Positions 40,723-64,000 of a DNA stretch of 64,000 bases are shown here, piece by piece. The notes below the pieces were generated by a model. The model did no database searches. It was not told where the DNA came from and worked only from the letters and a program-made list of their open reading frames with translations. The translations under genes and the position numbers were made by a program. Location: positions 158,580-222,579 of the forward strand of contig NW_001799002.1 of NCBI RefSeq assembly GCF_000165425.1. Direction: 5' to 3'. The DNA is from Paramecium tetraurelia. Its lineage: Eukaryota > Ciliophora > Oligohymenophorea > Peniculida > Parameciidae. Positions within the stretch are counted from its first letter, which is position 1, and each line of letters starts with the position of its first letter.

Positions 40723-41788
40723 TCAAAAGTAAGGGAAAGAATATGATAGGGGGGCGGTGGGGGCGAGTGTCTGCTGTCGGCTGTTTAATAATTATCTTGA
40801 GTCAATTTTAATTTTTCGACCATTTTCCCAGATCCCAAGCATTCTTTCTCCAGTTTCAGTAATGACTACACCTTTTCCATGTTATTTTCCCATCACCCAC
40901 TCTCCATCATATGTTCTACCGTTATTCCAATAAAAAACTCCTTAACCGTGTTTTTTATCATCTAAATACTATCCTTTATAACTCTTTCCATCAGGCCAAA
41001 TTGTTTCGCCATAACCATTAATCTTATTATTTAACCAATTTCCATTATAGATTTTTCCATCATACCAAGTGTATTTACCAAATCCATTTATTTCATTATC
41101 CATAAAATCTCCTTCATAAATACTGTTGTCTGCGAATTAGAGTTTTCCCTTTCCATTCTTTTTCCCAAAAGTATACATACCCTTTAGAATTAGTGGATTA
41201 TTTACTTCATATTTGGAACCATCAGGCCAACTTTCAACTCCCTTGCCATGTAAGAGATCATTCATCCATTCTCCCTCATATCTTGCACCTCCAGAATGGA
41301 CATAAATTCCTTCTCCATTAGCCGTGTCATTTATCCATTATCCCTCATAAGTATCTCCATCTCCATGAACTATTGTTGTAGAAGATAATCTAAATACCTA
41401 ATTTCCCTTTGCCCTCTGCTTTATCATTTTTCCATTCCCCTTCGTAATAGCCACCATCAGCCCAAAACTTCTATGAATTTATTAAGCTTACATGCAAGCC
41501 GAAGCCATCCCTTTTACAATTGAACCATTCGCCTTCATAATAACCTCCATTAGCCATGTTGATTCTAGGAAGTTTTTATCGAATTCCTTTTGTTTTCTAA
41601 ACAAGATCTTGATATTCATCATTAGCTGGTTTATTGTCCTCTGAATAAGAAGAATAAAATCAACCATGAGTTAATGATTCTGTTTCTTATTGTTTCTCTT
41701 TATCGATAATTTAATGTTCATTACTACCTTTTTGAGTTTACAATTCTTCTTCTCCTAGATTTTTCGGAATACAATTGCAGCTCCCCAT
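40723..41788 (-). CDS. MORN-repeat protein with acylation-type N-terminus
   Basis: A protein of about 345 aa with one 28-nt intron (41370-41397). The N-terminus MGSCNCIPKN has Gly2, Cys4 and Cys6, fitting myristoylation and palmitoylation. After ~90 polar residues come about nine to ten MORN repeats, for example YYEGEWKNDKAEGKG, YEGQWINDTANGEG, YEGEWMNDLLHGKG, YNGNWLNNKINGYG and YDGEWVMGKQHGKG. MORN repeats often bind phospholipids or scaffold membrane-cytoskeleton links. The C-terminal ~20 codons, rich in Ala/Pro/Ser, create the G-rich island near 40749. Probably a cortical or membrane protein. Confidence 0.85.
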
Positions 41789-42177
41789 ATTTTTATTAAT
41801 ATATTATATAAAGTATATTGCTGTCTATTTATATTATCTATTAATACAAAGCATCAATAAAAGATTTTAAGAAAATGTAGTATCTCTACTTCTATAATGT
41901 AACTGAATGAGTAGTTGATAAGTAATTAAATTGGCAATAAGATGTATTACTGCTGCTAAAACAGTAATTATAATATTTTAAAGAAAATTAAACAATAAAT
42001 TAAGGAATCTAAGTGTGGCAATAGCAGCGAGAAAGTATATTGAGAAAAAACGATCGTAAAGAAGGTGATTATTAAAGGGAAAGATCAAATTAATATTTTT
42101 TAAGGCATTAAAACTTTTTTATTGAGTAAGCTGTATGCTTCATAATGAAATCAAAAATTGTATCGATAATAGCTATA
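41789..42177. other. Intergenic region
   Basis: About 390 bases between the start of the MORN gene and the end of the first PP4 gene. Nothing is recognised. Confidence 0.35.
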
Positions 42178-45219: not shown

Positions 45220-45327
45220 ACTAGTTATATTTTAGAATTTATTAACATTATTATTTATTATCTTATGACAACATCAAATATGGTTAGAATTTCATTAAGA
45301 CATTCTTGATTGCTATAACATTTATTA

Positions 45328-47150
45328 ATGATAAATTAATTAAATATTTAGCAATTATTCTCTAATTTAGATGAATGGCATTACTCAAAATTGTCAGAAG
45401 TGTATTAGACCCCCATTCTACAATAATATCACATGTTAATTTTACAAATTAAAACTAAATTTCCTATACCCAATAGAATAAATGAGGTTGAATTTCCAAC
45501 TCAAGAAAATGCAGTTCAATTTTTTTAAAACTATAAGCCCATGACCCTCTAAATGAGTTAAGTTAAAGATGTCAAAATAAAATTATATAAAAATGCAGCA
45601 TATTTTGGAAATATAGTTGATGGATATCGATAAGGAAAGGGAATTTTAATAAAATAGACTCTGCACCTATATGAGGGCTAGTTTGAGAAGGATAAAAAGG
45701 AAGGAATAGGGTTCGAAATACTGAAAAGCAATTAATATTATTATGGGAATTATGTAAATGGATTACCACAAGGTGAAGGAATATTTTGGTCAAAAAGTCA
45801 GAAATACATAGGGTAATGGCATTAAGGGAAGAAGGTAATGAATGAAATTTAATATGTTAGCATGGTATTGGATTGTATTAAGGAATTCATCAAGATTACT
45901 ATATGGGTTAATGGGATAATGGAAAATGCTGTGGTTCCTGCTTGCATGTTAATGGATTCATGTAATTCAAATATTTACAATATATTAGATTTGTAGGGGA
46001 AGTAACTAATGATCTGAATTTTGGAGTAGGTAAGAAGTATTTGGAGAATGGGGATTTTTATAGTGGTGAATTTCGAAATGGGAAGCCTAATGGTAAGGGA
46101 GAGTATATTTGGAGTAATGGAAATTGCTATTAAGGAGAATTTGAAAATGGACTGAGAAATGGTTATGGGATTTGGTAAAGTAAGACTTAAAATGGAACAA
46201 ATTGTTATAAAGGATATTATACAAATGATAAAAAATGCGGTGAGGGAAGATTCGAATACTCAAATGGAACTGTGTATGTGGGTAATTTTATGGAAGATAA
46301 ACGATGTGGTTATGGTGAGATTGTTTGGAGTGATAAAGCCATCTATAAAGGATATTGGAGAGATGGTTTAATGGATGGAGAAGGTGTGTATTAGTATGAC
46401 TAGTTGATATTGAAAGGTAATTGGAAATAGAATTAGCTTTAAACTTTTGATAAGGTTAGGATTTCATTAAATGAATTTCCTTAGTAACAGTAAATTAAAG
46501 AAATCTAAGAGAATTAAGAAATTTAATCTGAAATCGCAGATGAACCAGATTTAGATCAAATTGGAGACCAATTCTAAAATGAGATATAAGAATCCAAAGC
46601 AGAAACTGTGATCTAAAACATATCTCACAATACCAGTCACCATGATATGTACTTTCATCCAAAGCAGCCTATTCTTCAAAAATAATTTGATTTGTTGAGT
46701 CTTTTGGATGAAAGTCTCTAATTTCAATCTTTAGAAAGCTCAAAAAGGTAGCATAAATCAAGTGTTGCTATCTAGACAGAATCGAAAAAGAAATTCTTGC
46801 CTAAATTAAGCATGAAAAAGTAACATCCAACTCAATTCAATATTAATCACTCGTTCTAGGAGCAGAGAAATAGAAAAAGTGCTCATTTACAATATGATGT
46901 GTCGTAAGGATCACCTTAGGTTAATGGGAATGGTAGTTTTCATTAAACAGAGGGAATACAGGGGTAGGCAAAGAAAAATGTAAATCGATCTATTTAATAT
47001 GGAAGGAAGAGACATAAACCAATTTTATTATCAACAAAAGAATAAAATGTATGGGCTATCAAGATGAGTAAGTTAAAATTAAGTCCTGCAAAATATTGTA
47101 GATTATGGAACCAAGAAGTATATGTATTAAATATTTAAGGTCGTTAATGA
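45328..47150 (+). CDS. MORN-repeat protein with long polar C-terminal tail
   Basis: A 598-aa protein with one 26-nt intron near 45,835. About nine MORN-like repeats span the first half: YEGQFEKDKKEGIGF, YYGNYVNGLPQGEG, YSGEFRNGKPNGKG, YQGEFENGLRNGYG, YKGYYTNDKKCGEG and YKGYWRDGLMDGEG. The second half is Gln/Ser/Lys-rich and probably disordered, ending in AKYCRLWNQEVYVLNIQG. The start at 45328 is chosen because the frame is open from there. ATG 45433 is a later in-frame alternative. No acylation motif is present, unlike the MORN protein at 40723-41788. Confidence 0.8.
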
Positions 47151-47263
47151 AATTAAACAGTTTCTGTATCCTCCAGTTTGGATGCCTCCTTCATACCTAC
47201 TTTGAGTTGACGTATTCTATATATATTCTACACTATTATTTATTATAAATAAAATTTCATCAA

Positions 47264-51406: not shown

Positions 51407-52334
51407 ATGTCCAAACCTCTAACTTAAACATTGATTGCTTAGAAAGCTAAGACAGAAGCTTTGTACAGCATCAAATCACTGAACTTATGGGGCAACGATC
51501 TTGACGACATCTCCATTATTGAAAGACTCCCTAATCTTGAAGTTCTTTCCTTGTCCGTGAATAGGATTACTACTCTTGCTGATATCGCAAAATGCAAGAA
51601 TATAAAAGAACTCTACTTGAGAAAGAACAATATTTCAAGTATTACAGAATTGCAATTCCTATAACATTTACCGAAATTGAAAGTTTTATGGCTTCAAGGT
51701 ATAATTTAATTAAATAATAGAAAATCCAATTGCTGATCATCCAAATTATAGAGATGCTGTAATTTGCAATTCTTAAACACTTGAAAAATTGGATGATGTT
51801 GTTATTAGTCAACAAGACAGAGCAAATGCTTAGTAATAATTGTAATATGGAATTTCGTAAAGCCCACCAACAAAGATTCAAAAAGTAGAGGAGGAAATGC
51901 CACAATATGTTGAAGTTATTAAACCAAATCAATACTCTCCAAATAATGGCGGAGGGAGATATTCAAATTAACGAGAATAATAATCAAATCAATAACGACA
52001 ATCATTATAGCAATCATATCAGTAGCCACAATAATAGTAACAGTTCTATCAATAACAATAATAGCAATTATAAAGAGAAAGAGAATAATAATATTTGCAA
52101 CAATAATAATATCAATAATAACTGTAGCAATAACAATAATCACAATTATTTCTATAACAATAATAATAACAATAACAAATATCAAGATAAGTCGTGAAAT
52201 CAGATTATGCTGATGAAGAAAGAAATTCAAACATATTATGCGCCATCCTATCTCTTCTAAAAGAATTAGATAAAGCCACATTAGAAGCGGTCTAAAGAGA
52301 AGTATATGATAAATTATAATAATATTAAGAGTGA
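51407..52334 (+). CDS. CFAP410: CFAP410 (C21orf2)-like ciliary leucine-rich-repeat protein
   Basis: A 301-aa protein with a 22-nt intron at 51699-51720. Leucine-rich repeats: SIKSLNLWGNDLDDISI, LPNLEVLSLSVNRITTLADI and IKELYLRKNNISSITEL, then LPKLKVLWLQENPIADHPNY with an LRR cap. This order and sequence (LNLWG, LSVNxIxTL, LYLRxNxI, VLWLxENP) is that of CFAP410, needed for cilia. A long insert of mostly Gln, encoded by CAA mixed with TAA and TAG, separates the LRR part from the conserved C-terminal helical domain (NILCAILSLLKELDKATLEA). It lies 30 bases after the kinase gene. Confidence 0.85.
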
Positions 52335-52535
52335 TTAAGAAAATTTTTTAAATTATACTTTTTTAATATGATATGATTAACTTCCCTTCTACAAAATTTA
52401 TGAATTTGATTAATTTTTAATAGAATGGTTATGTGATTTTTGAGATTATTTGGATGAAAATTCTATTAAGTCAATATTATTAGACCTAAATATAACATAG
52501 ACAAATTCTATTATCAAAGCAGGCTATTAATATTG
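52335..52535. other. Intergenic region
   Basis: About 200 AT-rich bases between the CFAP410-like gene and the repeat-protein gene. An upstream exon of the repeat protein may lie here. Confidence 0.3.
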
Positions 52536-55500
52536 ATGCAAGGTAATTTGATGATAATAATATAAAAAAAGATGTAAGAAGCATAAAATAATTCTTAAGA
52601 TTATATCTATGAAGGATTGTAGAAGAGTATAATGGAAAAGGATTCAACTGAATCAGGTTCAGAAGTTGTTGATACATAAGGAGAATAAAGCAAACATAAT
52701 GATTCAAGTGAAATGCAAGATGATGAGTCTGATCCAATACATTAAGATCAGACGATAATGAGTGATTTATAATAAAATGTGAAAGTTGATGAATTTGATG
52801 ACAATTATAAGAAATAGATGTAGGTGGATATAGAAACTTATTAAGAAATGAACTTTTAGAATAGAAAGAGTTTTGAAGTAATTAATTAGGAGTTATCAAA
52901 TATTTGTAATAATTCTATTAGGTAATAAAATTATAAGACTAAAAACGAAAATAAACTAATAGAAAAAGAAGTATAGATAATAAATGATTATCAAATAAGT
53001 GAAAATATTGATAATGGGATGGAAGATAAATTAATGAGGTATAATGCTGAAAAAATCGAAGTATTAAGTAACGATCAAACCAACTAAATTATGAAAGAGG
53101 AAATGAATAATAAAGTATTGACAAAATAGAATCAAGTACAAAATGTTGTAGAATAATTATAAAATTAGGAAAATGTTATTAATTTATATAAATAATTATT
53201 TGAAAACTATTAAGTAGAAGAGAAATCAGGATTATAGGTTGATATGAATAATGAAGTTAATAAACCAGAAGAATAAGCTTGTATGAATAATGAAGTTAAT
53301 CAACCAGAAGAATAAGATGATATGAATAATGAAGTTAATCAACCAGAAGAATAAGATGATATGAATAATGATGTTAATCAACCAGAAGAATAAGCTTGTA
53401 TGAATAATGAAGTTAATCAACCAGAAGAATAAGCTTGTATGAACAATGAATATAATCAACCAGAAGAATAAGATGATATGAATAATGATGTTAATTAACC
53501 AGAAGAATAAGCTTGTATGAATAATGAAGTTAATCAACCAGAAGAATAAGCTTGTATGAATAATGAAGTTAATCAACCAGAAGAATAAGATGATATGAAT
53601 AATGATGTTAATCAACCAGAAGAATAAGCTTGTATGAATAATGAAGTTAATCAACCAGAAGAATAAGATGATATGAATAATGAAGTTAATCAACCAGAAG
53701 AATAAGATGATATGAATAATGAATTTAATCAACCAGAAGAATAAGCTTGTATGAACAATGAAGTTAATCAACCAGAAGAATAAGATGATATGAATAATGA
53801 TGTTAATCAACCAGAAGAATAAGATGATATGAATAATGAAGTTAATCAACCAGAAGAATAAGCTTGTATGAACAATGAAGTTAATCAACCAGAAGAATAA
53901 GATGATATGAATAACGATGTTAATTAACCAGAAGAATAAGCTTGTATGAATAATGAAGTTAATCAACCAGAAGAATAAGATGATATGAATAATGAAGTTA
54001 ATCAACCAGAAGAATAAGCTTGTATGAATAATGAAGTTAATCAACCAGAAGAATAAGCTTGTATGAATAATGAAGTTAATCAACCAGAAGAATAAGATGA
54101 TATGAATAATGATGTTAATCAACCAGAAGAATAAGCTTGTATGAATAATGAAGTTAATCAACCAGAAGAATAAGATGATATGAATAATGAAGTTAATCAA
54201 CCAGAAGAATAAGATGATATGAATAATGAATTTAATCAACCAGAAGAATAAGCTTGTATGAACAATGAAGTTAATCAACCAGAAGAATAAGATGATATGA
54301 ATAACGATGTTAATTAACCAGAAGAATAAGCTTGTATGAATAATGAAGTTAATCAACCAGAAGAATAAGCTTGTATGAATAATGAAGTTAATCAACCAGA
54401 AGAATAAGATGATATGAATAATGAAGTTAATCAACCAGAAGAATAAGATGATATGAATAATGAATTTAATCAACCAGAAGAATAAGCTTGTATGAACAAT
54501 GAAGTTAATCAACCAGAAGAATAAGATGATATGAATAATGATGTTAATCAACCAGAAGAATAAGATGATATGAATAATGAAGTTAATCAACCAGAAGAAT
54601 AAGCTTGTATGAACAATGAAGTTAATCAACCAGAAGAATAAGCTTGTATGAATAATGAAGTTAATCAACCAGAAGAATAAGCTTGTATGAATAATGAAGT
54701 TAATCAACCAGAAGAATAAGCTTGTATGAATAATGAAGTTAATCAACCAGAAGAATACGATGATATGAATAATGAAGTTAATCAACCAGAAGAATAAGAT
54801 GATATGAATAATGAAGTTAATCAACCAGAAGAATAAGATGATATGAATAACGATGTTAATTAACCAGAAGAATAAGCTTGTATGAATAATGAAGTTAATC
54901 AACCAGAAGAATAAGCTTGTATGAATAATGAAGTTAATCAACCAGAAGAATAAGCTTGTATGAATAATGAAGTTAATCAACCAGAAGAATACGATGATAT
55001 GAATAATGAAGTTAATCAACCAGAAGAATAAGATGATATGAATAACGATGTTAATTAACCAGAAGAATAAGCTTGTATGAATAATGAAGTTAATCAACCA
55101 GAAGAATAAGATGATATGAATAACGATGTTAATTAACCAGAAGAATAAGCTTGTATGAATAATGAAGTTAATCAACCAGAAGAATAAGCTTGTATGAATA
55201 ATGAAGTTAATCAACCAGAAGAATAAGATGATATGAATAATGATGTTAATCAACCAGAAGAATAAGCTTGTATGAATAATGAAGTTAATCAACCAGAAGA
55301 ATAAGATGATATGAATAATGAAGTTAATCAACCAGAAGAATAAGATGATATGAATAATGAATTTAATCAACCAGAAGAATAAGCTTGTATGAACAATGAA
55401 GTTAATCAACCAGAAGAATAAGATGATATGAATAACGATGTTAATTAACCAGAAGAATAAGCTTGTATGAATAATGAAGTTAATCAACCAGAAGAATAAG

Positions 55501-56582
55501 ATGATATGAATAACGATGTTAATTAACCAGAAGAATAAGCTTGTATGAATAATGAAGTTAATCAACCAGAAGAATAAGATGATATGAATAATGAAGTTAA
55601 TCAACCAGAAGAATAAGATGATATGAATAATGAAGTTAATCAACCAGAAGAATAAGATGATATGAAATAAGAAGTTTTATAATCAGATCCTATGTTTGAA
55701 TAAACATAATAGGATATTTAATTAAACCAAATGATTGAAATGAAAAACAAAAATGAATCACCAGAAAACTAGGTTAAATAAAAAACTTAAGAAGAATAGG
55801 ATGAATAGAGTAATGTTAATTCGTAATATGTCTATTTTGCTTAAGAAAATGATTCTTAAAATATTGAAATAGAATAATCTCAATAATTGTTTGTATCCAA
55901 TCAAAAATAAAACAATACATGCCATTACTTTAATAGTTTGCAAGCCAAATATCTAAAAACAAAAAACGAAATTTCTCATTAGTTCAATTATCTTAAAAGG
56001 ATATTAAACCCATTCTTCATTATTTATTTAGTTTTATCCTTTTTTTATACTATATTATCGACTTTGAAGATAAAGGCTACAACAAAAATAGTATCCTCGT
56101 ATTAATATATTAAGAACTTTTTCATAATTAAGTTTTAAAAAATGTGTGAATTTACCTGCTTTTGTCATAATTAAATTTTCGATCTGCATCAAAGAGGAAA
56201 AATTAAAACAATAATCCAATAAATAGAACCTTAATAATACTAAATTACTCTAAGAATAAGGATTATTTAGGAAGTTGGTTTTCAGAAATATGTTATTTTA
56301 ACTTTGAAAAGTATTGCTACTTTTATTTAACAAATGTATTGCTACTTTATTTAACAAATGTATTGCTTCTTTAAGAACGGCAATTTAGGCTACTTATAAT
56401 TTCTTCATAACTATTCTTAAGATTTTTTTCAATAGAGTTTTATATATTCCATTTATTACCTTGCGCATGCTTTGTTACTTCATTGTAATACAAGTAATAA
56501 GTTGCTCCCTTGTTATTAGGATATTCATAAGAATTATGAAATTCTTTTGGCATCTAAAAAAACTACTTGTACAAACTGCTGA
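52536..56582 (+). CDS. Repeat protein with 62 tandem 13-residue units
   Basis: One open frame of 1,349 codons from ATG 52536 to TGA 56580-56582. Residues 1-234 are acidic and Gln/Asn-rich. Residues 235-1040 are 62 tandem 13-residue repeats (for example DDMNNEVNQPEEQ and ACMNNEVNQPEEQ). About 300 residues follow. They include a Gln/Asn-rich part and a hydrophobic segment (NPFFIIYLVLSFFYTILSTL), which could be a membrane helix. The start may be further upstream. A putative 31-nt intron at 56569-56599 would join this frame exactly to that of the next gene. Function is unknown. The repeats suggest a disordered, low-complexity spacer or adhesive. Confidence 0.7.
53238..55655 (+). repeat. 62 tandem copies of a 39-base coding repeat
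   Basis: The array is exactly 2,418 bases, 62 units of 39 bases (13 codons), with no length variation. The first two residues of the unit are mostly Asp-Asp or Ala-Cys. Positions 6-7 vary as Glu-Val, Asp-Val, Glu-Phe and once Glu-Tyr. Position 9 is Gln, encoded by CAA or TAA. Two units end in Tyr (TAC) instead of Gln (TAA), near 54,757 and 54,991. Blocks of several units recur in the same order, a sign of multi-unit duplication. Confidence 0.95.
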
Positions 56583-57207
56583 ACCTGTACAACCTGCAGA
56601 ACCTGTGCAACCACCCCAACCTGCTCAACCTAAAGAATACCCTATTGCCTTAATAATTGGAGAAGCTGGGGTTGGTAAAACAAAATTCTATAATAAAATA
56701 AATGATACGGAAGCCTTGTAATATGAAATTGTAGATACAATCTCATTTGATTTTAAGAATGATATTGAATACAGGGAGTAGCAAATATCAGAATTTTAAA
56801 GTATATTTGATAGCAAACCAAATAAAGTGGCTACATTATTCTTTGTTGTAAAGTTTGAAAGAACTGATTTAATGAAAAGGTCTATACTGAATATTTATCC
56901 CTACTTTAAGAAGTTTTAGAGTTAAATAACCCTTGTGGTTACTCATTTTGATTTAAGTGATGACTAGGAATAAGATAAAATCGATTTATAAAGAGCATTC
57001 AAAATGTTTAAAGCAAAGTCAATTCTATTTGTTGATCAAGAGGCAACTAAAGAAGAATTAATTGATCAAATAAGGGCTTCAGATTGTTTAATTCCTATTG
57101 AAGAAGGCTATTAATTTGATTTAACTGATACGATATTTGAAAAGCATAATGAGTAAGAAGGATAGGAAATGATGAATGCTTTATAACAGATGACTGTAAG
57201 ATCGTGA
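56467..57207 (+). CDS. AIG1/GIMAP-like P-loop GTPase, copy 1
   Basis: The GTP-binding part is clear: LIIGEAGVGKTKFYNKI (Walker A), VDTISFDF in the switch II position, LFFVVKFERTDLMKR, and LVVTHFDLSDD in the position of the G4 motif (TxxD). This layout resembles the AIG1/GIMAP family. A Pro-rich linker (AEPVQPAEPVQPPQPAQP) precedes it. The frame from ATG 56467 gives 246 aa with a hydrophobic start. ATG 56536 is also possible. Alternatively the domain is an exon of the upstream repeat protein. A diverged paralogue lies 735 bases downstream. Confidence 0.7.
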
Positions 57208-57238: not shown

Positions 57239-57873
57239 ATGTTATATTAAATAATTTCTTTTTGTTTAATTTTTAAAGCAAGGATCTCTTAATAATTGAA
57301 TCTAATTGTTATTTAGTAATTTACTGAACTCTATAGGCTTTTTAATTAAAAAATTGAAGTAGCGTGTAAATGCTATCTAATTGAGAGTAATCCAATAATT
57401 GTTATAAATGGGAAAAAATTTTTTTTAAAGAACAGAATTTATACCAGGAATGCATACAAATATTTAGATCTTTTTGAATTGAGAAAACGAATTATTAAAT
57501 CCCTATCTTAGTCGATGAACTATTTCCTCTAAATAATGATGAATTACAAGTAATTATTTTCAAAAACAAACAAAGAGATGTTAAATCTTAAAAGTTTATT
57601 ATTAAAAAAATTAAATAAAAATTATTAAAATAGAATTTGAATCTATATTGCGAGTTCATAATGCAATATGAATAACAATATTAAAATGTTATGAAAAACG
57701 CTACTACAATAAGAGCAGACATGTATTTAATTATGAACATTCAAATACAATATTTTTCTACCTCAAAAAGTTTATTACCTTTATCATTATATAATTCTAA
57801 TTCTATTAGACTTAAATATATTATGGGTTCTATTACTTTTTGGATTAGATTAAATAAGTTATCTAAAGGATGA
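57239..57873 (+). CDS. Uncharacterised ORF pair, possibly a broken gene
   Basis: From ATG 57239 an open frame of 134 codons runs to TGA 57638-57640 (FTELYRLFNQKIEVACKCYL, VINGKKFFLKNRIYTRNAYK). A second coding-like frame, shifted, continues to TGA near 57,873 (MQYEQQYQNVMKNATTIRAD). No splice sites that join them are obvious. It may be two small genes, or one gene with a frameshift, lying between the two GIMAP-like genes. No domain is recognised. Confidence 0.35.
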
Positions 57874-57941
57874 GGAAGTTAAAGGTGCAAAATTGGATTG
57901 GATATGAAGTATTTTAAAGTAAGAAGCCTTCTTGGGATATC

Positions 57942-58868
57942 ATGGGGACTCAATCTAATCAATATTCGAATTTCAGATCAAACGTATCAACCTGCGCAAC
58001 AAATATAAGCAGCGCTTTTAATTATTCTTCAACATTTAGTTTGGAGAATAAATTTGGTTCTATTTCACCCAATGCACTTAGTATCAAAAAAACTTAAGAA
58101 CCAAAAGAATTATGTATCACTCGGAATTATGAATTAACATCTCAATTAACTCCCTCGATACCTCCATAAGATACGCCATCAATGCCACCTTCGATAACAA
58201 TTCCCAATGAATCTGTTTCTAGTTCAAGTGAAACATCAATGATTAGTTCTGAGAGTTTGTGCGAGGAGAAAATTCCATTGGCTCTAATAATCGGTTAGGT
58301 AGATAATGGGAAAACATTTATAATGAGAAAGATTTTTGATGAGGATACCAAAATAGAACTGTTTTAGCCTATATTATAAAAATAATTGAAATATTACTTT
58401 GTTGATACTTCGTCCTTTGATATTGATTCAGATTATGATTCAAGAGAAGAGCAGATTAATAATTACAAAGAATTGTTCAATAAATACCCGAATAGAGTGA
58501 GATCAATTTTGATAGCTGTTAATTTTGAGAGAACGGATTTAATGAAGAAAAAAGTCTAAAATATTAATAAACTATTTCAAAAATTCAAGAACTTGTATAC
58601 CATAATAGTGACTAAGTTTCATTTCAGCGAAAACGTTGAAAGAGATAAGGAATAACTAAAGAGAAGTTTTTAGTATTTGAATGCATAAGACATCATCTTT
58701 GTTGGTAATGATACAAAAAAAGAGCAATTATTGAGAGATTTAAAATAAAATAGTTTGTAGGCTTTAGAGGATGGTTATGAATTTAATTTAGCTGACACTT
58801 TTTTATAGGAGGAAGATGAGAATGAATAGAATTAAATATTAAATGACTTAAAAAATAGATTTAATTGA
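57942..58868 (+). CDS. AIG1/GIMAP-like P-loop GTPase, copy 2
   Basis: Intronless, 308 aa from ATG 57942. The first ~110 residues are Ser/Thr/Asn/Pro-rich and disordered. The G domain has LIIGQVDNGKTFIMRKIF (P-loop GxxxxGKT), YYFVDTSSFDID, SILIAVNFERTDLMKKKV and TIIVTKFHFSENVERDKEQL. It ends in an acidic tail. It is clearly a paralogue of the domain at 56467-57207 (shared NFERTDLMKK and GYEFNLADTFL versus GYQFDLTDTIF). The G4 Asp seen in copy 1 (THFD) is His-Phe in copy 2 (TKFHF), so guanine specificity may be weaker. Confidence 0.7.
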
Positions 58869-59100
58869 TCTCTGTTATAAATATCATTTTTTTTGGCAGT
58901 ATATTTATTATTGTAAAATTAATAAAAGTATTAATTGGACAATTTTACCAGATCATTAATATATATGAATTATTAACATTTTGGGACAACATTCCCAGAA
59001 TCTATGAATTTGGTTAAATTTGAATTCATGTAGAAAATAATCTGGCTTCACAAAACTACAGAATAATATAATATTGATAAATGCGATTTTATAATTTGTA
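58869..59100. other. Intergenic region
   Basis: About 230 bases between convergent genes. Nothing is recognised. Confidence 0.3.
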
Positions 59101-62100
59101 TCATTTAGAAGCAAACAAAAACTTCTATTGATTGATTGTGCTCTCCAAGATTGTATTTTCTTTAACAGGGAACATCAGATCAAACATTCCTGTTCCTTGA
59201 GGCACATTCTATCCAATGATTACTCGTTGAGATGCACCATTCATCGAATCTTACTTCCCTTGGATGGCAGCATTAAAAAAGACGTCCATTGTTTTTTCAA
59301 AGGAAGCAAGCATCAAGGCTGAATTCTTTAGTTAATCTATTCCTTGTCTGGTGAACCCAAGGATTCTTCCTTAATTGAGTAAAAATTGAATAAATACCTT
59401 TGAATGTCATCAATTCTGCTAACAATAGGATGTGTCTTATATCAATGGAAATGCTGTGACTTTACATGGTAGTGTACACTTCATTGACAATACTCTATCT
59501 GGCAGCTTCAATTCCAAGAGCACTTTGAATTTCCATGATGTGATTACTGACTGTTCGTTTCCAATCAATGTTGTCCAATCGTAGAATTTCTTTGAATCCA
59601 ATACCAGATGCAAACAACCTGGCTTCTCCCTTGACATTCTCCTTATCATCCTTATCTGTAACCTAGATAACAGTTTACTTGATATTTGCACAACCATAAA
59701 TGTGCAACCTCAATAGTTTTCGTTATAGCTCTTTGATCAAAAACAGCAGGTTTTCTGATTGTTTCTTCTTAGAACTCTTTTTAACTGTAATTCTAATAAT
59801 TTTGAGATCATATTTGACATCATCAGGTGACAATTTCAACTCTTTTAAAATCAGAGCACACACGTATTTGGGAGTCACAAATTCTAGTTTCAATCTAGCT
59901 AGACAATGACAATCTAATTCTAATTCTATATAGCAATTATCTGCTGTGTAGATTTCATCCATCTTCTTCAGTATTTACATCAATTTGGTTTACTCTATTT
60001 GTATGTTGACATCTTAGGCTTACTAAGCAGAATGGATGACTGCACGATGAGCATACTCATATTGAGGATCCCCAGACTTGGCGAACTACTTGGCATGATC
60101 CATGACCTGGCGATTGATCAATTTCACATTAATTTAGGGTGTTTTGATTTCCTTACTTGCATTGATGATTTCATTTAGACGAGGAACACCCTAAGTGATG
60201 GACATTCCTGCAACACCAGCAGAGTGGAAAGTCTTCAAAGTCATTTGAGTAGCAGGTTCACCAATGGATTGAGATGTGATGGGTCCCACACTAGTACCAG
60301 GTGCCATAACCATGGTTAAGAATCTTTCCATCCAACTTCTGATGAACCATTACAATTATTTTTCAGAAACCTATTGGTTGGTACTCTTAAACAATGCCTA
60401 GACTCTCTTCTTCTCTTTCTCGTAAGTGGCTTCATAGTTTTCCAAGAATTTCTTGTGTCTCTCCTCAATTATCATAAATAGTTCATCCAATTTGATCAGC
60501 ATGTGTTCTTTATTCAACAATATTTGATTCTTCCTGAGGACAGTAAATGAATTAGTCAAAAGGTTCTATAGCTTGATAACCTCATTTGCATCTTCTACTG
60601 CCAGAGGATCCAATCCATCTTCTCCATACCTAAATTGAACTATCTCTTTGGTGTCACAAGATCGAACTGTAAGATCATAAGCAATATGTAAATCTTCAAG
60701 CATCTTAACCAGCCTACGTTGCATATATCCAGTAGTGGCTGTCTTGACTGCGGTATCTGTCAACCCTTCTCTTCCAGCCATATTATGGAAATAGAACTCA
60801 ATTGCATCCATTCCCGTATAAAAACTATTCTTGACAAACCCTTTGGCTTTCGGGTGCAAGATGTCTAAATTGGGATAGCGATCGCCACAATCTTTGAAGT
60901 GTGGGAGTGTCCTTCCTGTGAATCCTTCTGGGACTCTCTTTCCTGATATGACTTATTGTCCAACACAACCAATCATCTGGGCCACATTGACATTACTACC
61001 CTTGGCACCACACAGATACATAATCAACACCTTATTATCACTCTTCAATTACTCCTGGCACTTTGAACCCACTTACTCTCTCACATCTGATAGAGTCTTA
61101 TTCACCTTAGCTTCCAAGGTCTACTCAACTGTCAACCCAGGATCAGCATCAATTAGACTTCGTTAATAGTGTTTGCATTGCAAGTAACTCTATTCAGTGC
61201 TCTAATGGATCTATTCAATTAAAGATTTGGGTGCCATCACATCACCAATTCCAATAGTCATTCCATAATGCGATATCCATCTGGAAGACAATTTTGCGAA
61301 TCTCTGCATTACTGATGCTGCTATCTAAGTAGAATTATCTCTTATGAGTGCGTAGAACAACCCTAATTTCGATGCTCCCAGCACTTTCTTACCTATATTT
61401 CCACAAACCAATTCGCATTTATCAAATACGACATAGCCATCACCAGGGTCCATCCACAAATAGTCCAACTTTCCTTTAAATGCGTTACTTTCTTTTGCTT
61501 CTAAATTCAACACTAGTCTAGTCTTTCTGTTAGGTACAAGTAATGCATTGATTACTTATTTTCCTGTCCATAATTATTTTGGTTTTAGTATCGTTGGGGC
61601 TGGCAAATCTATTTGTTCATTGGAATCAGAGAAGGCCGCACAAAATTACATAAATTATTCTCTGGAATAAAAGACATCCTTATTTGTTATCAACCAGGCA
61701 GTGGTAAGAAAATCTTACAGTAAACAAACGAGCGATTCACCACTTTTAATAGTTTTGAGATTCTTCTTGACATCCATCAAAATTAATGCTTCTGATCTTG
61801 CTTCGTAGGTTTATGGTAAATGTATGTTCATTTCGTCTCCGTCAAAATCAGCATTGAATGGAGTACACACACATTCATTGAATCGAAGAGTGTGCCACTT
61901 ATCCACCCTAGCTCTGAAGGCCATCATAGAAATTCTATGCAATGACGGCTAACGATTAAAAATGACAATGTCCTCTGATAACAAGTGTCTATCCACCACA
62001 TCTCCAATCTTTAACTTATAGGCTAAATGCGCCCTTCTTGCAAATTACAAATTGTAATTGACTCCTCCCAATTTAACGAATTTGGCTCCTGGATAGATGG

Positions 62101-63290
62101 AGGGTCCATTTTATACGTAGTCTCTCATCTTCTTAATATTCAAGGCGGTGACAGTTTCAGGTACTGTCAAGATGCACGCAATATGCTATGGAATGGTGAC
62201 CTAATCAATAGCCAAATTAGGATCTGGAGAGATGACTGAACGTGCAGTGAATTCTGCTCTCTTACCGGATAGATTACCCCTTAGTCTTCCTCTCTTACCC
62301 TTGAGTCTCTGATAGATGCCACGTATGTCCACCTTTCCATCTTTGCTTGAGAATTGGGGCAAACGAGGTGTCTCACTATTGAAGTAATGAAAATAATGTG
62401 CTTGAGTCAAGAATTACGTTTTGAGGATTGACATGCCATCCTTTCCCTCCTTTATCTACTTCTGCAACAGATCGTTGTGGTAGAGGATGGTTTTCAACTT
62501 CATCGTCAAATCGTCTTCGTCTGCCTTGGTGGTATTGCTTAGCATTTTGCTGGGTCTTATGTTGTTGGGTGGAGCGGGTATGATGGAAGTGAGGAGATCA
62601 GACAAATCGTTTAAGAAAGGGTTGATGCAAAACAGGAATTGATGTTGTTTAGGGATGTTGGAGAATTGATTCCAGGCATACAGTGCATTAATATCCATGG
62701 TGTCCAGGATGATCTTGCCTGCATCCCCCTTGGCTAGTTTTTTGGCTTCTCCGATCTGCTCACAATAGCAATGGGGACACTGTTTGTTTGATCTGCATTT
62801 TTTGAGGACCTTCTTGAATACCTTCAACTGTGCATTGTAGGATCGTGTTTATATGCAATGTACCATCTTTTAGGTTAGTTGATTGATCTCGTCAGGGGTT
62901 AATCTTACTTGACCGCATTTCTAGGACTGTCAATATCAAATCATACATAACAGAGACACTTCAAGCACTTGACCACGTGAGTGAAAAAGCCGAGGTGATA
63001 GATTGGCAATTATAAGGGGATGTATCCGAAATGTCCAGGACATTCATTCAATAGCGTGCAACTGCTGCATTGAGTGTCTCGTAAACTTTGACCCATACGC
63101 AAATCAAGTGGACCATGTTCAATATTCTTCCCAGTCATTTTATCATAATTTTTGTCTCTAAAGATTTTGACTTCCGCCAAATTGATAGCATCTTGTGGGG
63201 ACAATATTGAGTATTGCAATCCTCCTCTATATATATTGTGGATGATAGTGTTTACATCTTCCTCTTAATGTCATTTAATTTGATGTACAT
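59101..63290 (-). CDS. POLR3A: RNA polymerase III largest subunit (RPC1)
   Basis: A protein of roughly 1,370 aa. A 29-nt intron after KRKI, just past the start, and a 28-nt intron before RILGFTRQG near the 3' end are visible. Others may exist. The N-terminus has [18 protein letters not shown], then zinc-clamp cysteines ([16 protein letters not shown]). Further on come [20 protein letters not shown], the catalytic [10 protein letters not shown] with Mg-binding aspartates near 61,846, a bridge-helix region [20 protein letters not shown] and [20 protein letters not shown]. The C-terminus, [19 protein letters not shown] and [12 protein letters not shown], lacks a heptad CTD and matches Pol III rather than Pol II. 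Pol III makes tRNA and 5S rRNA. Confidence 0.92.
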
Positions 63291-63324
63291 CTTTGATGAA
63301 AGAATATATTAATATTAGTAAAAG

Positions 63325-63933
63325 ATGAATTCGGAATTGTAAATGAAGAGAGAACAGTTTATGGTTCAAATCAGAAAGCAGGCTCGCGAGGAGATTTTCT
63401 CTAAGAAAAGACAGACGAGCCTCGGGTAGGAGGGGGAAGTGGTGGAGCGGTGCAATCCCGACGAGATAATCAATTTCATATATCAGACTTATTTGGAGTA
63501 GGATTTCAAACATTTAGCTCGGTTGTTGAAACAATACAATTTGAATTACTTGAAATTGTTGGAGGAGTAGAACATTAATGATCTGCCCATTCTGAATCAA
63601 TTCATCACTCACTTTAGCACCAATGGCAATAGTTTAAAATTATTCTTTGATATAATTCGAATGAGTGGCATTCCCTTAGAAATCAATCTGACATCGGATA
63701 GGTTGATGTGCATAATCCAAGTGTTGGTAATCTTGATCAATTTCACCTATTTGGAGAGGAAGGATATTGTGGAGAATCTCTTGCAAAACGATTTGATCAC
63801 TCTCTTATTGAAGGATTTGATGAGTAGAATGGTATCACCTGATAAAGTTCAGATTCACTTTGATAGATGGTGTGAGATTCTTGAGAGTGTAATCAATCTT
63901 TACTATGAATTTATCAGATTTGCCTAATTTTGA
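63325..63933 (+). CDS. IBB-like/armadillo-type protein (importin-alpha-like), possibly incomplete
   Basis: ATG 63325 opens MNSELQMKREQFMVQIRKQA followed by REEIFSKKRQ, an importin-beta-binding (IBB)-like basic helix. The next ~170 residues are helical and ARM-like (DEIINFIYQTYLEQDFKHLA, LPILNQFITHFSTNGN, MCIIQVLVILINFTYLER). The frame meets TGA at 63931-63933, about 200 aa, much shorter than the ~500 of importin alpha. An intron near the end could extend it beyond the window. It is divergent from RPC1, with 34 bases between the start codons. Confidence 0.6.
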
Positions 63934-64000
63934 TAAACGTCTAATTTGAATTGGATAATCGAAAACTATTGATTTTTAGAGAGGAAACTCTCAGATCTCA

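Follow-up and report, generated by a model that had tools for sequence, protein, structure and literature searches.

A 39-base tandem array in Paramecium tetraurelia as a probable coding minisatellite of a putative membrane GTPase gene

The array and the reading frame that contains it

We analyzed a 64,000-nucleotide stretch of Paramecium tetraurelia contig NW_001799002.1 (the window; its contig is called C49 below), and related sequences were searched for in the genome assembly of 69 Mb and 231 contigs. The genetic code, a low G+C content, the CCCAAA/CCCCAAA-type repeats at one end of contig C224 and the presence of paralogous blocks agree with a macronuclear genome of Paramecium. The window holds a tandem array of 39-base units, followed on the plus strand by hydrophobic segments and a P-loop GTPase domain (Table 1). 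The array consists of 2418 bases, or 62 units with zero indels; an initial annotation made from the letters had reported this exact periodicity, and both direct counting and Tandem Repeats Finder (TRF) confirmed it. TRF placed the array at 53240-55676 with 62.5 copies and a score of 3913, against 111 for the runner-up array in the window, and the array is thus far beyond chance expectation. The TRF count is 62.5 rather than 62 because a degenerate partial 63rd unit adjoins the array (24/39 bases). To the left, three 39-base stretches match the unit at 19-21/39 bases and hence are not units. The count of 62 is taken from a single contig, C49, and no further copies of the array were found elsewhere in the genome among the matches listed.

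Table 1. Features of the array gene and its surroundings, in window positions
Feature	Position	Strand	Details
Possible 31-base intron (GTC..TAG)	52470..52500	+	Would add an upstream exon from ATG 52373; low confidence
N-terminal acidic Q/N/E-rich region	52536..53237	+	234 codons, counted from the open frame's first ATG; no TGA; best codon score of six frames
39-base array	53238..55655	+	62 x 39 bases = 62 x 13 codons; consensus DDMNNEVNQPEEQ / ACMNNEVNQPEEQ
Degenerate 63rd-unit start	55656..55676	+	24/39 bases match over full unit length; TRF array extends here
Acidic Q/N-rich linker	55677..56000	+	Open frame common to C49 and C136
Hydrophobic segment 1	56001..56057	+	Hydropathy scan of C136 reading, score 2.07
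C49-C136 discrepancy stretch	56163..56324	+	Relative to C136, 7 additional single bases and 3 substitutions in C49; shifts frame between array and GTPase in C49
Hydrophobic segments 2 and 3	56401..56529	+	56401-56457 (score 1.73) and 56473-56529 (score 2.27); GTPase frame in both contigs
P-loop GTPase domain (probable)	56638..57204	+	GEAGVGKT from 56659, ..FERTDLM.., DTIFE; TGA stop 57205-57207
Neighboring paralogous GTPase gene (GTPase 2), without array	57870..58868	+	37% identical in aligned domain

Ten unit types make up the array, in 21, 13, 7, 6, 6, 4, 2, 1, 1 and 1 copies and in the order HABDAIJAADABFEDBECABAADABFECAABFEDBEAAGBBCAAGBCACAADABFECACABB. The two classes of unit described initially are present, with codons 1 and 2 encoding Asp-Asp in 31 units and Ala-Cys in 30, and one Val-Asp unit falls outside both. 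Codon 9 is CAA in 53 units and TAA in 8, as described for these 61; the remaining unit, overlooked at first, has AAA (Lys). Codon 13 is TAA in 60 units and TAC in the other two, just as had been stated. The frame is open under the ciliate code (table 6) and encodes 806 residues (21% Glu, 10% Asp, 23% Asn, 15% Gln) with a net charge of -248, a single Lys, and no Ser, Thr or Arg. With 0-1 cysteine per 13 residues, the periodic cysteines of the initial annotation occur in 30/62 units and are missing from the remainder. Structure prediction for 21 units modelled alone gave a predicted local distance difference test score (pLDDT) of 31.7, and no fold was predicted from sequence alone.

Codon scores, trained on the kinase gene of the window and its paralogue, were positive only in plus frame 0 for the N-terminal flank, the array, the post-array region and the GTPase region, and the five other frames were negative. 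This supports the plus-strand protein that had been proposed for the array. Among the matches listed, the N-terminal region matched only itself in the genome, indicating a single copy, and it had no Pfam match. The possible intron in Table 1 is the only frame-joining GT..AG candidate of 19-35 bases that starts in 52373-52611; a GTC start is unusual for Paramecium introns.

Continuity between the array frame and a GTPase frame

In C49 as assembled, the array frame, which ends at a TGA (56580-56582), is overlapped in a different phase by the GTPase frame (56308-57207). A second contig, C136, is 12,755 bases long, begins at window position 55666 and is 99.86% identical to C49 over 8.3 kb. The two differ at 12 alignment columns, 10 of which fall at 56163-56324. 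In C136 as assembled, the frame from base 3 to base 1424 contains no TGA; it reads through hydrophobic segments (ILNPFFIIYLVLSFFYTIL, FFITILKIFFNRVLYIPFI and CYFIVIQVISCSLVIRIFI, found by a simple hydropathy scan) and then into the P-loop GTPase. The GTPase lies in a separate frame of C49 because of the seven extra single bases at 56163-56324.

C136 in turn carries an extra single base, absent from C49, at 57098 and at 61434. The insertion at 57098 breaks the GTPase frame that C49 leaves intact, and 61434 falls within a minus-strand frame (59297-62866) that C49 keeps open. Insertion thus seems to be the type of error in both contigs, and by that analogy C49's seven extra bases would be errors too. 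On this comparison the array and the GTPase likely belong to a single gene, about 1,554 codons long when counted from ATG 52536. We rate the single gene no higher than likely because codon bias in the link provides no independent support.

Two short repeats lie in the stretch between the array and the GTPase. A 24-base repeat of 2.8 copies (8 codons, CIATLFNK-like) is found at 56307-56373 in the GTPase frame, and an 18-base repeat of 2.5 copies at 56568-56612 encodes VQPAEP-like units immediately before the P-loop. The post-array region and the hydrophobic middle matched only this locus and the redundant C136 among the matches listed.

The GTPase domain and its relatives

The C-terminal domain, with its G1 P-loop GEAGVGKT from 56659, is probably a TRAFAC-type P-loop GTPase reached through three hydrophobic segments. 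The initial annotation recognized no family for the array protein; that holds for the array itself, but beyond it the gene probably extends into a GTPase domain with relatives in the genome. The family gave 20 matches elsewhere in the genome, 13 of them aligned, and comprises 16 distinct loci. An arginine in an FERTDLM-like context is kept in 15/15 aligned relatives. A low-confidence structure prediction from two sequences (pLDDT 54.7) suggests a GIMAP/Toc34/EngB-type fold.

Profile searches placed the domain in neither of two families. The window GTPase had no match to Pfam AIG1 (PF04548) at E 1 or better, and 4/15 aligned family members matched that profile weakly, at 0.1 (best 6.8e-5). It likewise had no match to the septin profile (PF00735) at E 1; 3/15 members matched weakly (best 6.9e-4), and the septin matches of the genome sit at other places. 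Searches of open-access literature, mostly at the level of titles and abstract openings, listed no paper on this gene or on GIMAP-like Paramecium GTPases.

Seven of the 16 family loci lie less than 20 kb from a contig end (C19, C193, C204, C132, C45, C205 and C224). The binomial probability of this excess is 0.003, or 0.010 with the near-identical C193/C204 blocks counted once, on the assumption that 13.4% of the genome is so placed (2 x 20 kb x 231 contigs of 69 Mb). The C193/C204 blocks (L043, L044), 3.2 kb long and 90% identical, lie in GTPase-family loci and represent a recent duplication. The contig end at C224 is a CCCAAA/CCCCAAA-type telomere-like repeat, the only such end shown among those loci.

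Genetic code and growth of the array

The variation between CAA and TAA at codon 9 had been taken as proof that TAA encodes glutamine. That TAA is read as Gln is supported, and the array swaps do not prove it. The eight units with TAA are of type C (7) and type J (1); both types have GAT at codon 6, as in type D, and type C equals type J plus one further change. The swap is weak evidence for the code because one C-to-T mutation copied by duplication explains all eight. From the nesting of these types within type D, the variation is probably a single mutation spread by duplication. Better evidence came from the kinase and leucine-rich repeat (LRR) genes of the window, which were compared with their paralogues on C77 (amino-acid identity 45% and 75%). 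Among 205 aligned codon pairs involving TAA or TAG (TAR), 45 were TAR-TAR (counted once; 90 if counted from both sides) and 32 were TAR-CAR, and the remaining 128 were spread over 17 other residues, with maxima of 22 for K, 21 for E and 19 for S. In the kinase frame, TAA and TAG account for 92/139 Gln codons and TGA is absent; the N-terminal flank, the array and both GTPase frames also have many TAA/TAG codons and no internal TGA. Reassignment of TAA and TAG to Gln has been known for ciliates since the 1980s and is textbook knowledge for Paramecium, and the altered code displayed by the array is not new.

Recurrence of ordered blocks, previously attributed to duplication of multi-unit modules, was borne out. 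The nine-unit block AADABFECA occurs in two exact copies, at units 21-29 and 50-58; a third copy of its first seven units lies at units 8-14. No repeat of nine was reached in 500 permutations of the unit order (maximum 7). First-order Markov simulations reached a repeat of nine or more in 23/500 cases, and much of the unit order is therefore explained by nearest-neighbor preferences. The order fits duplication of multi-unit blocks.

The claim that the exact unit length indicates strong selection for frame was overstated. Whole-unit duplication preserves the period with or without selection, so the exact 39-base period by itself does not demonstrate frame selection. The array contains 12 variant states at 10 columns, of which 9 change the amino acid and 3 are synonymous, which shows no constraint. 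The 117 possible single changes in the consensus unit comprise 18 synonymous, 98 residue-changing and 1 stop, and 14 of its 39 transitions are synonymous. No excess of silent changes is visible in these small numbers.

Collinear regions and a second repeat

On C77 the kinase and LRR genes keep their order, and window positions 59050-59748 and 63307-64000 also have matches there. On C185, matches to 40777-41795 and 45321-47192 precede a GTPase gene of the same orientation. Directly before its GTPase domain, the C185 gene has 3.8 in-frame copies of an unrelated 138-base unit (46 residues). In a tree this gene groups with GTPase 2 and C39, though only weakly. In the simplest scenario, an ancestral GTPase gene stood at this place and was lost from C77, and C49 and C185 each gained or replaced repeats on their own. 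Turnover of the repeat sequence appears to be fast, since the 46-residue repeat that precedes the GTPase of the collinear relative is unrelated to the array.

A survey by TRF covered 249,931 bases in a non-random sample in which the overlap of the window and C136 was counted twice. Repeats of at least 3.5 copies were this array, the C185 repeat (138-base x 3.8), an 18-base x 5.1 repeat on C174, a 13-base x 3.7 repeat on C6, and the C224 end repeat.

Interpretation and alternatives

We propose that the array is a coding minisatellite in one gene with a membrane GTPase, in which the repeat serves as a tether, and give this explanation as a whole a probability of about 0.6. The unit falls within about 10-100 bp, has a length that is a multiple of 3 and lies inside an open frame with coding codon usage; on balance, we favor a coding minisatellite in the 5' half of a single somatic (macronuclear) ciliate gene. 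In the proposed mechanism, the protein would be a membrane-anchored GTPase of about 1,550 residues to which the array would contribute a long N-terminal part, acidic and disordered, and the GTPase would act as a switch on a membrane. The disordered and very acidic repeat might be a tether or brush that spaces or excludes partners, and its length could be adjusted in 13-residue steps by unequal exchange or slippage, leaving the frame intact.

Several observations weigh against this proposal. The connection between array and GTPase depends on C136 alone. The codon score of the link is neutral (-0.04 in the joining frame versus +0.03 in another), and about 120 codons without TGA are expected by chance roughly 1 time in 10. 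A shuffle test gave 3/2000 with the GTPase domain included and, because of that inclusion, is no test of the link. Foldseek with the weak GTPase model found no match at E 0.001 or better. A genome-wide AIG1 search passed its cut-off at C179 and C153 and at none of the GTPase-family loci; the same profile also exceeds its cut-off in 8/14 control genomes. The hydropathy scan detected no segment in C185, C39, C48 or GTPase 2, and nothing like the array gene or GTPase 2 was found on C77 between the matches to the window. The tether function is inferred from composition only, and the array could lie on the far side of the membrane with three segments or in the cytosol with two.

The neutral link also bears on the alternative that there are two genes, an array protein ending at or before the TGA at 56580-56582 and an independent GTPase gene starting near ATG 56467. 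Such an arrangement matches C49 as assembled and would account for a link region without coding bias. However, if the GTPase began at ATG 56467, the two frames would share 116 bases of the same strand (fewer from a later ATG). Moreover, the array frame and the GTPase are one frame in C136, and the seven extra bases of C49 are insertions of the same kind as the base at 57098 that breaks the GTPase in C136. We regard two genes as unlikely. Somewhat less doubtful, and compatible with a real array, is the idea that the copy number of 62 is a product of assembly and that the actual array has another length or a variable one. Redundant contig C136 has its start at the right edge of the array, so an assembler stopped there, and 10/12 of the C49-C136 differences fall less than 700 bases from the array. 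The ten distinguishable unit types of C49, in non-periodic order, are nevertheless unlike a simple collapse.

Two other identities for the array are far less probable. Paramecium surface antigens have an N-terminal signal peptide, are Thr/Ser-rich and show dense cysteine periods. A variable surface protein with cysteine-rich repeats, like these immobilization antigens, would fit a large repeat protein with cysteines recurring in 30/62 units; yet the array is devoid of Ser and Thr, the 234 residues before it contain no hydrophobic stretch (the true first exon being unsure), and the probable C terminus is a GTPase domain, expected to be cytosolic, which makes this identity very improbable. The least probable of all is that the array is non-coding or encodes protein on the minus strand. 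Open minus-strand frames do run through the array, including one of 1,149 residues from an ATG, as any 39-base unit lacking TGA in a frame would give; codon scores in all three minus frames, however, are negative for the N-terminal flank, the array and the post-array region, whereas plus frame 0 is positive. Minus-strand coding of the array was rejected on these scores.

Comparison with known systems

The probable gene resembles the AIG1/GIMAP and Toc34 "paraseptin" GTPases in its P-loop, its predicted GTPase fold (in a weak model), its kept arginine and its probable membrane attachment; unlike AIG1/GIMAP proteins, the window GTPase has no Pfam AIG1 match at E 1. No solved relative is known to carry such an array. 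Arginine fingers are stated for TOC34/TOC159 and AIG1/GIMAP (PMC11238149), and the FERTDLM arginine is a putative equivalent.

Among repeats, the nearest comparison is ymf64 of the Paramecium caudatum mitochondrial genome, described as an intragenic minisatellite with a unit that is a multiple of three and a length that varies between strains (PMC3118789). As in the present array, the unit lies in an open frame, and length changes in ymf64 keep that frame intact. Unlike mitochondrial ymf64, the present gene is nuclear, has 62 units of 13 codons and is known here from one assembly. Tetrahymena LRR genes contain arrays of 90-bp exons for which unequal crossing over was proposed (PMC6564038); they too are rapidly evolving ciliate genes with tandem units. 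Their units are intron-flanked exons encoding LRRs, in contrast to an array that is one open frame with no LRR. Simple sequence repeats have been surveyed in nine ciliates (PMC7285179).

As a repeat, the array is an ordinary member of the coding minisatellites; less expected are its probable fusion to a divergent GTPase and the presence of a different repeat in a collinear relative. What had been an unrecognized low-complexity repeat is thereby probably the variable part of a gene for a membrane GTPase. Two collinear relatives in which unrelated repeats precede the GTPase make the gain or replacement of repeats tractable to study. The locus also illustrates how small insertion errors next to an array can make an assembly show one gene as two. 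A wider and quite speculative possibility is a ciliate family of membrane-attached GIMAP-like GTPases that acquire and replace unrelated coding minisatellites before the GTPase domain, as a quickly evolving tether of adjustable length. If so, the excess of family loci near contig ends would suit a fast-evolving, defense-like gene set.

Other features of the window

No tRNA or Rfam genes were found in the window (ARAGORN was run with the bacterial code). The LRR gene upstream of the array gene contains a Gln-rich tract at 51960-52182, the DNA of which is similar to many places in the genome.
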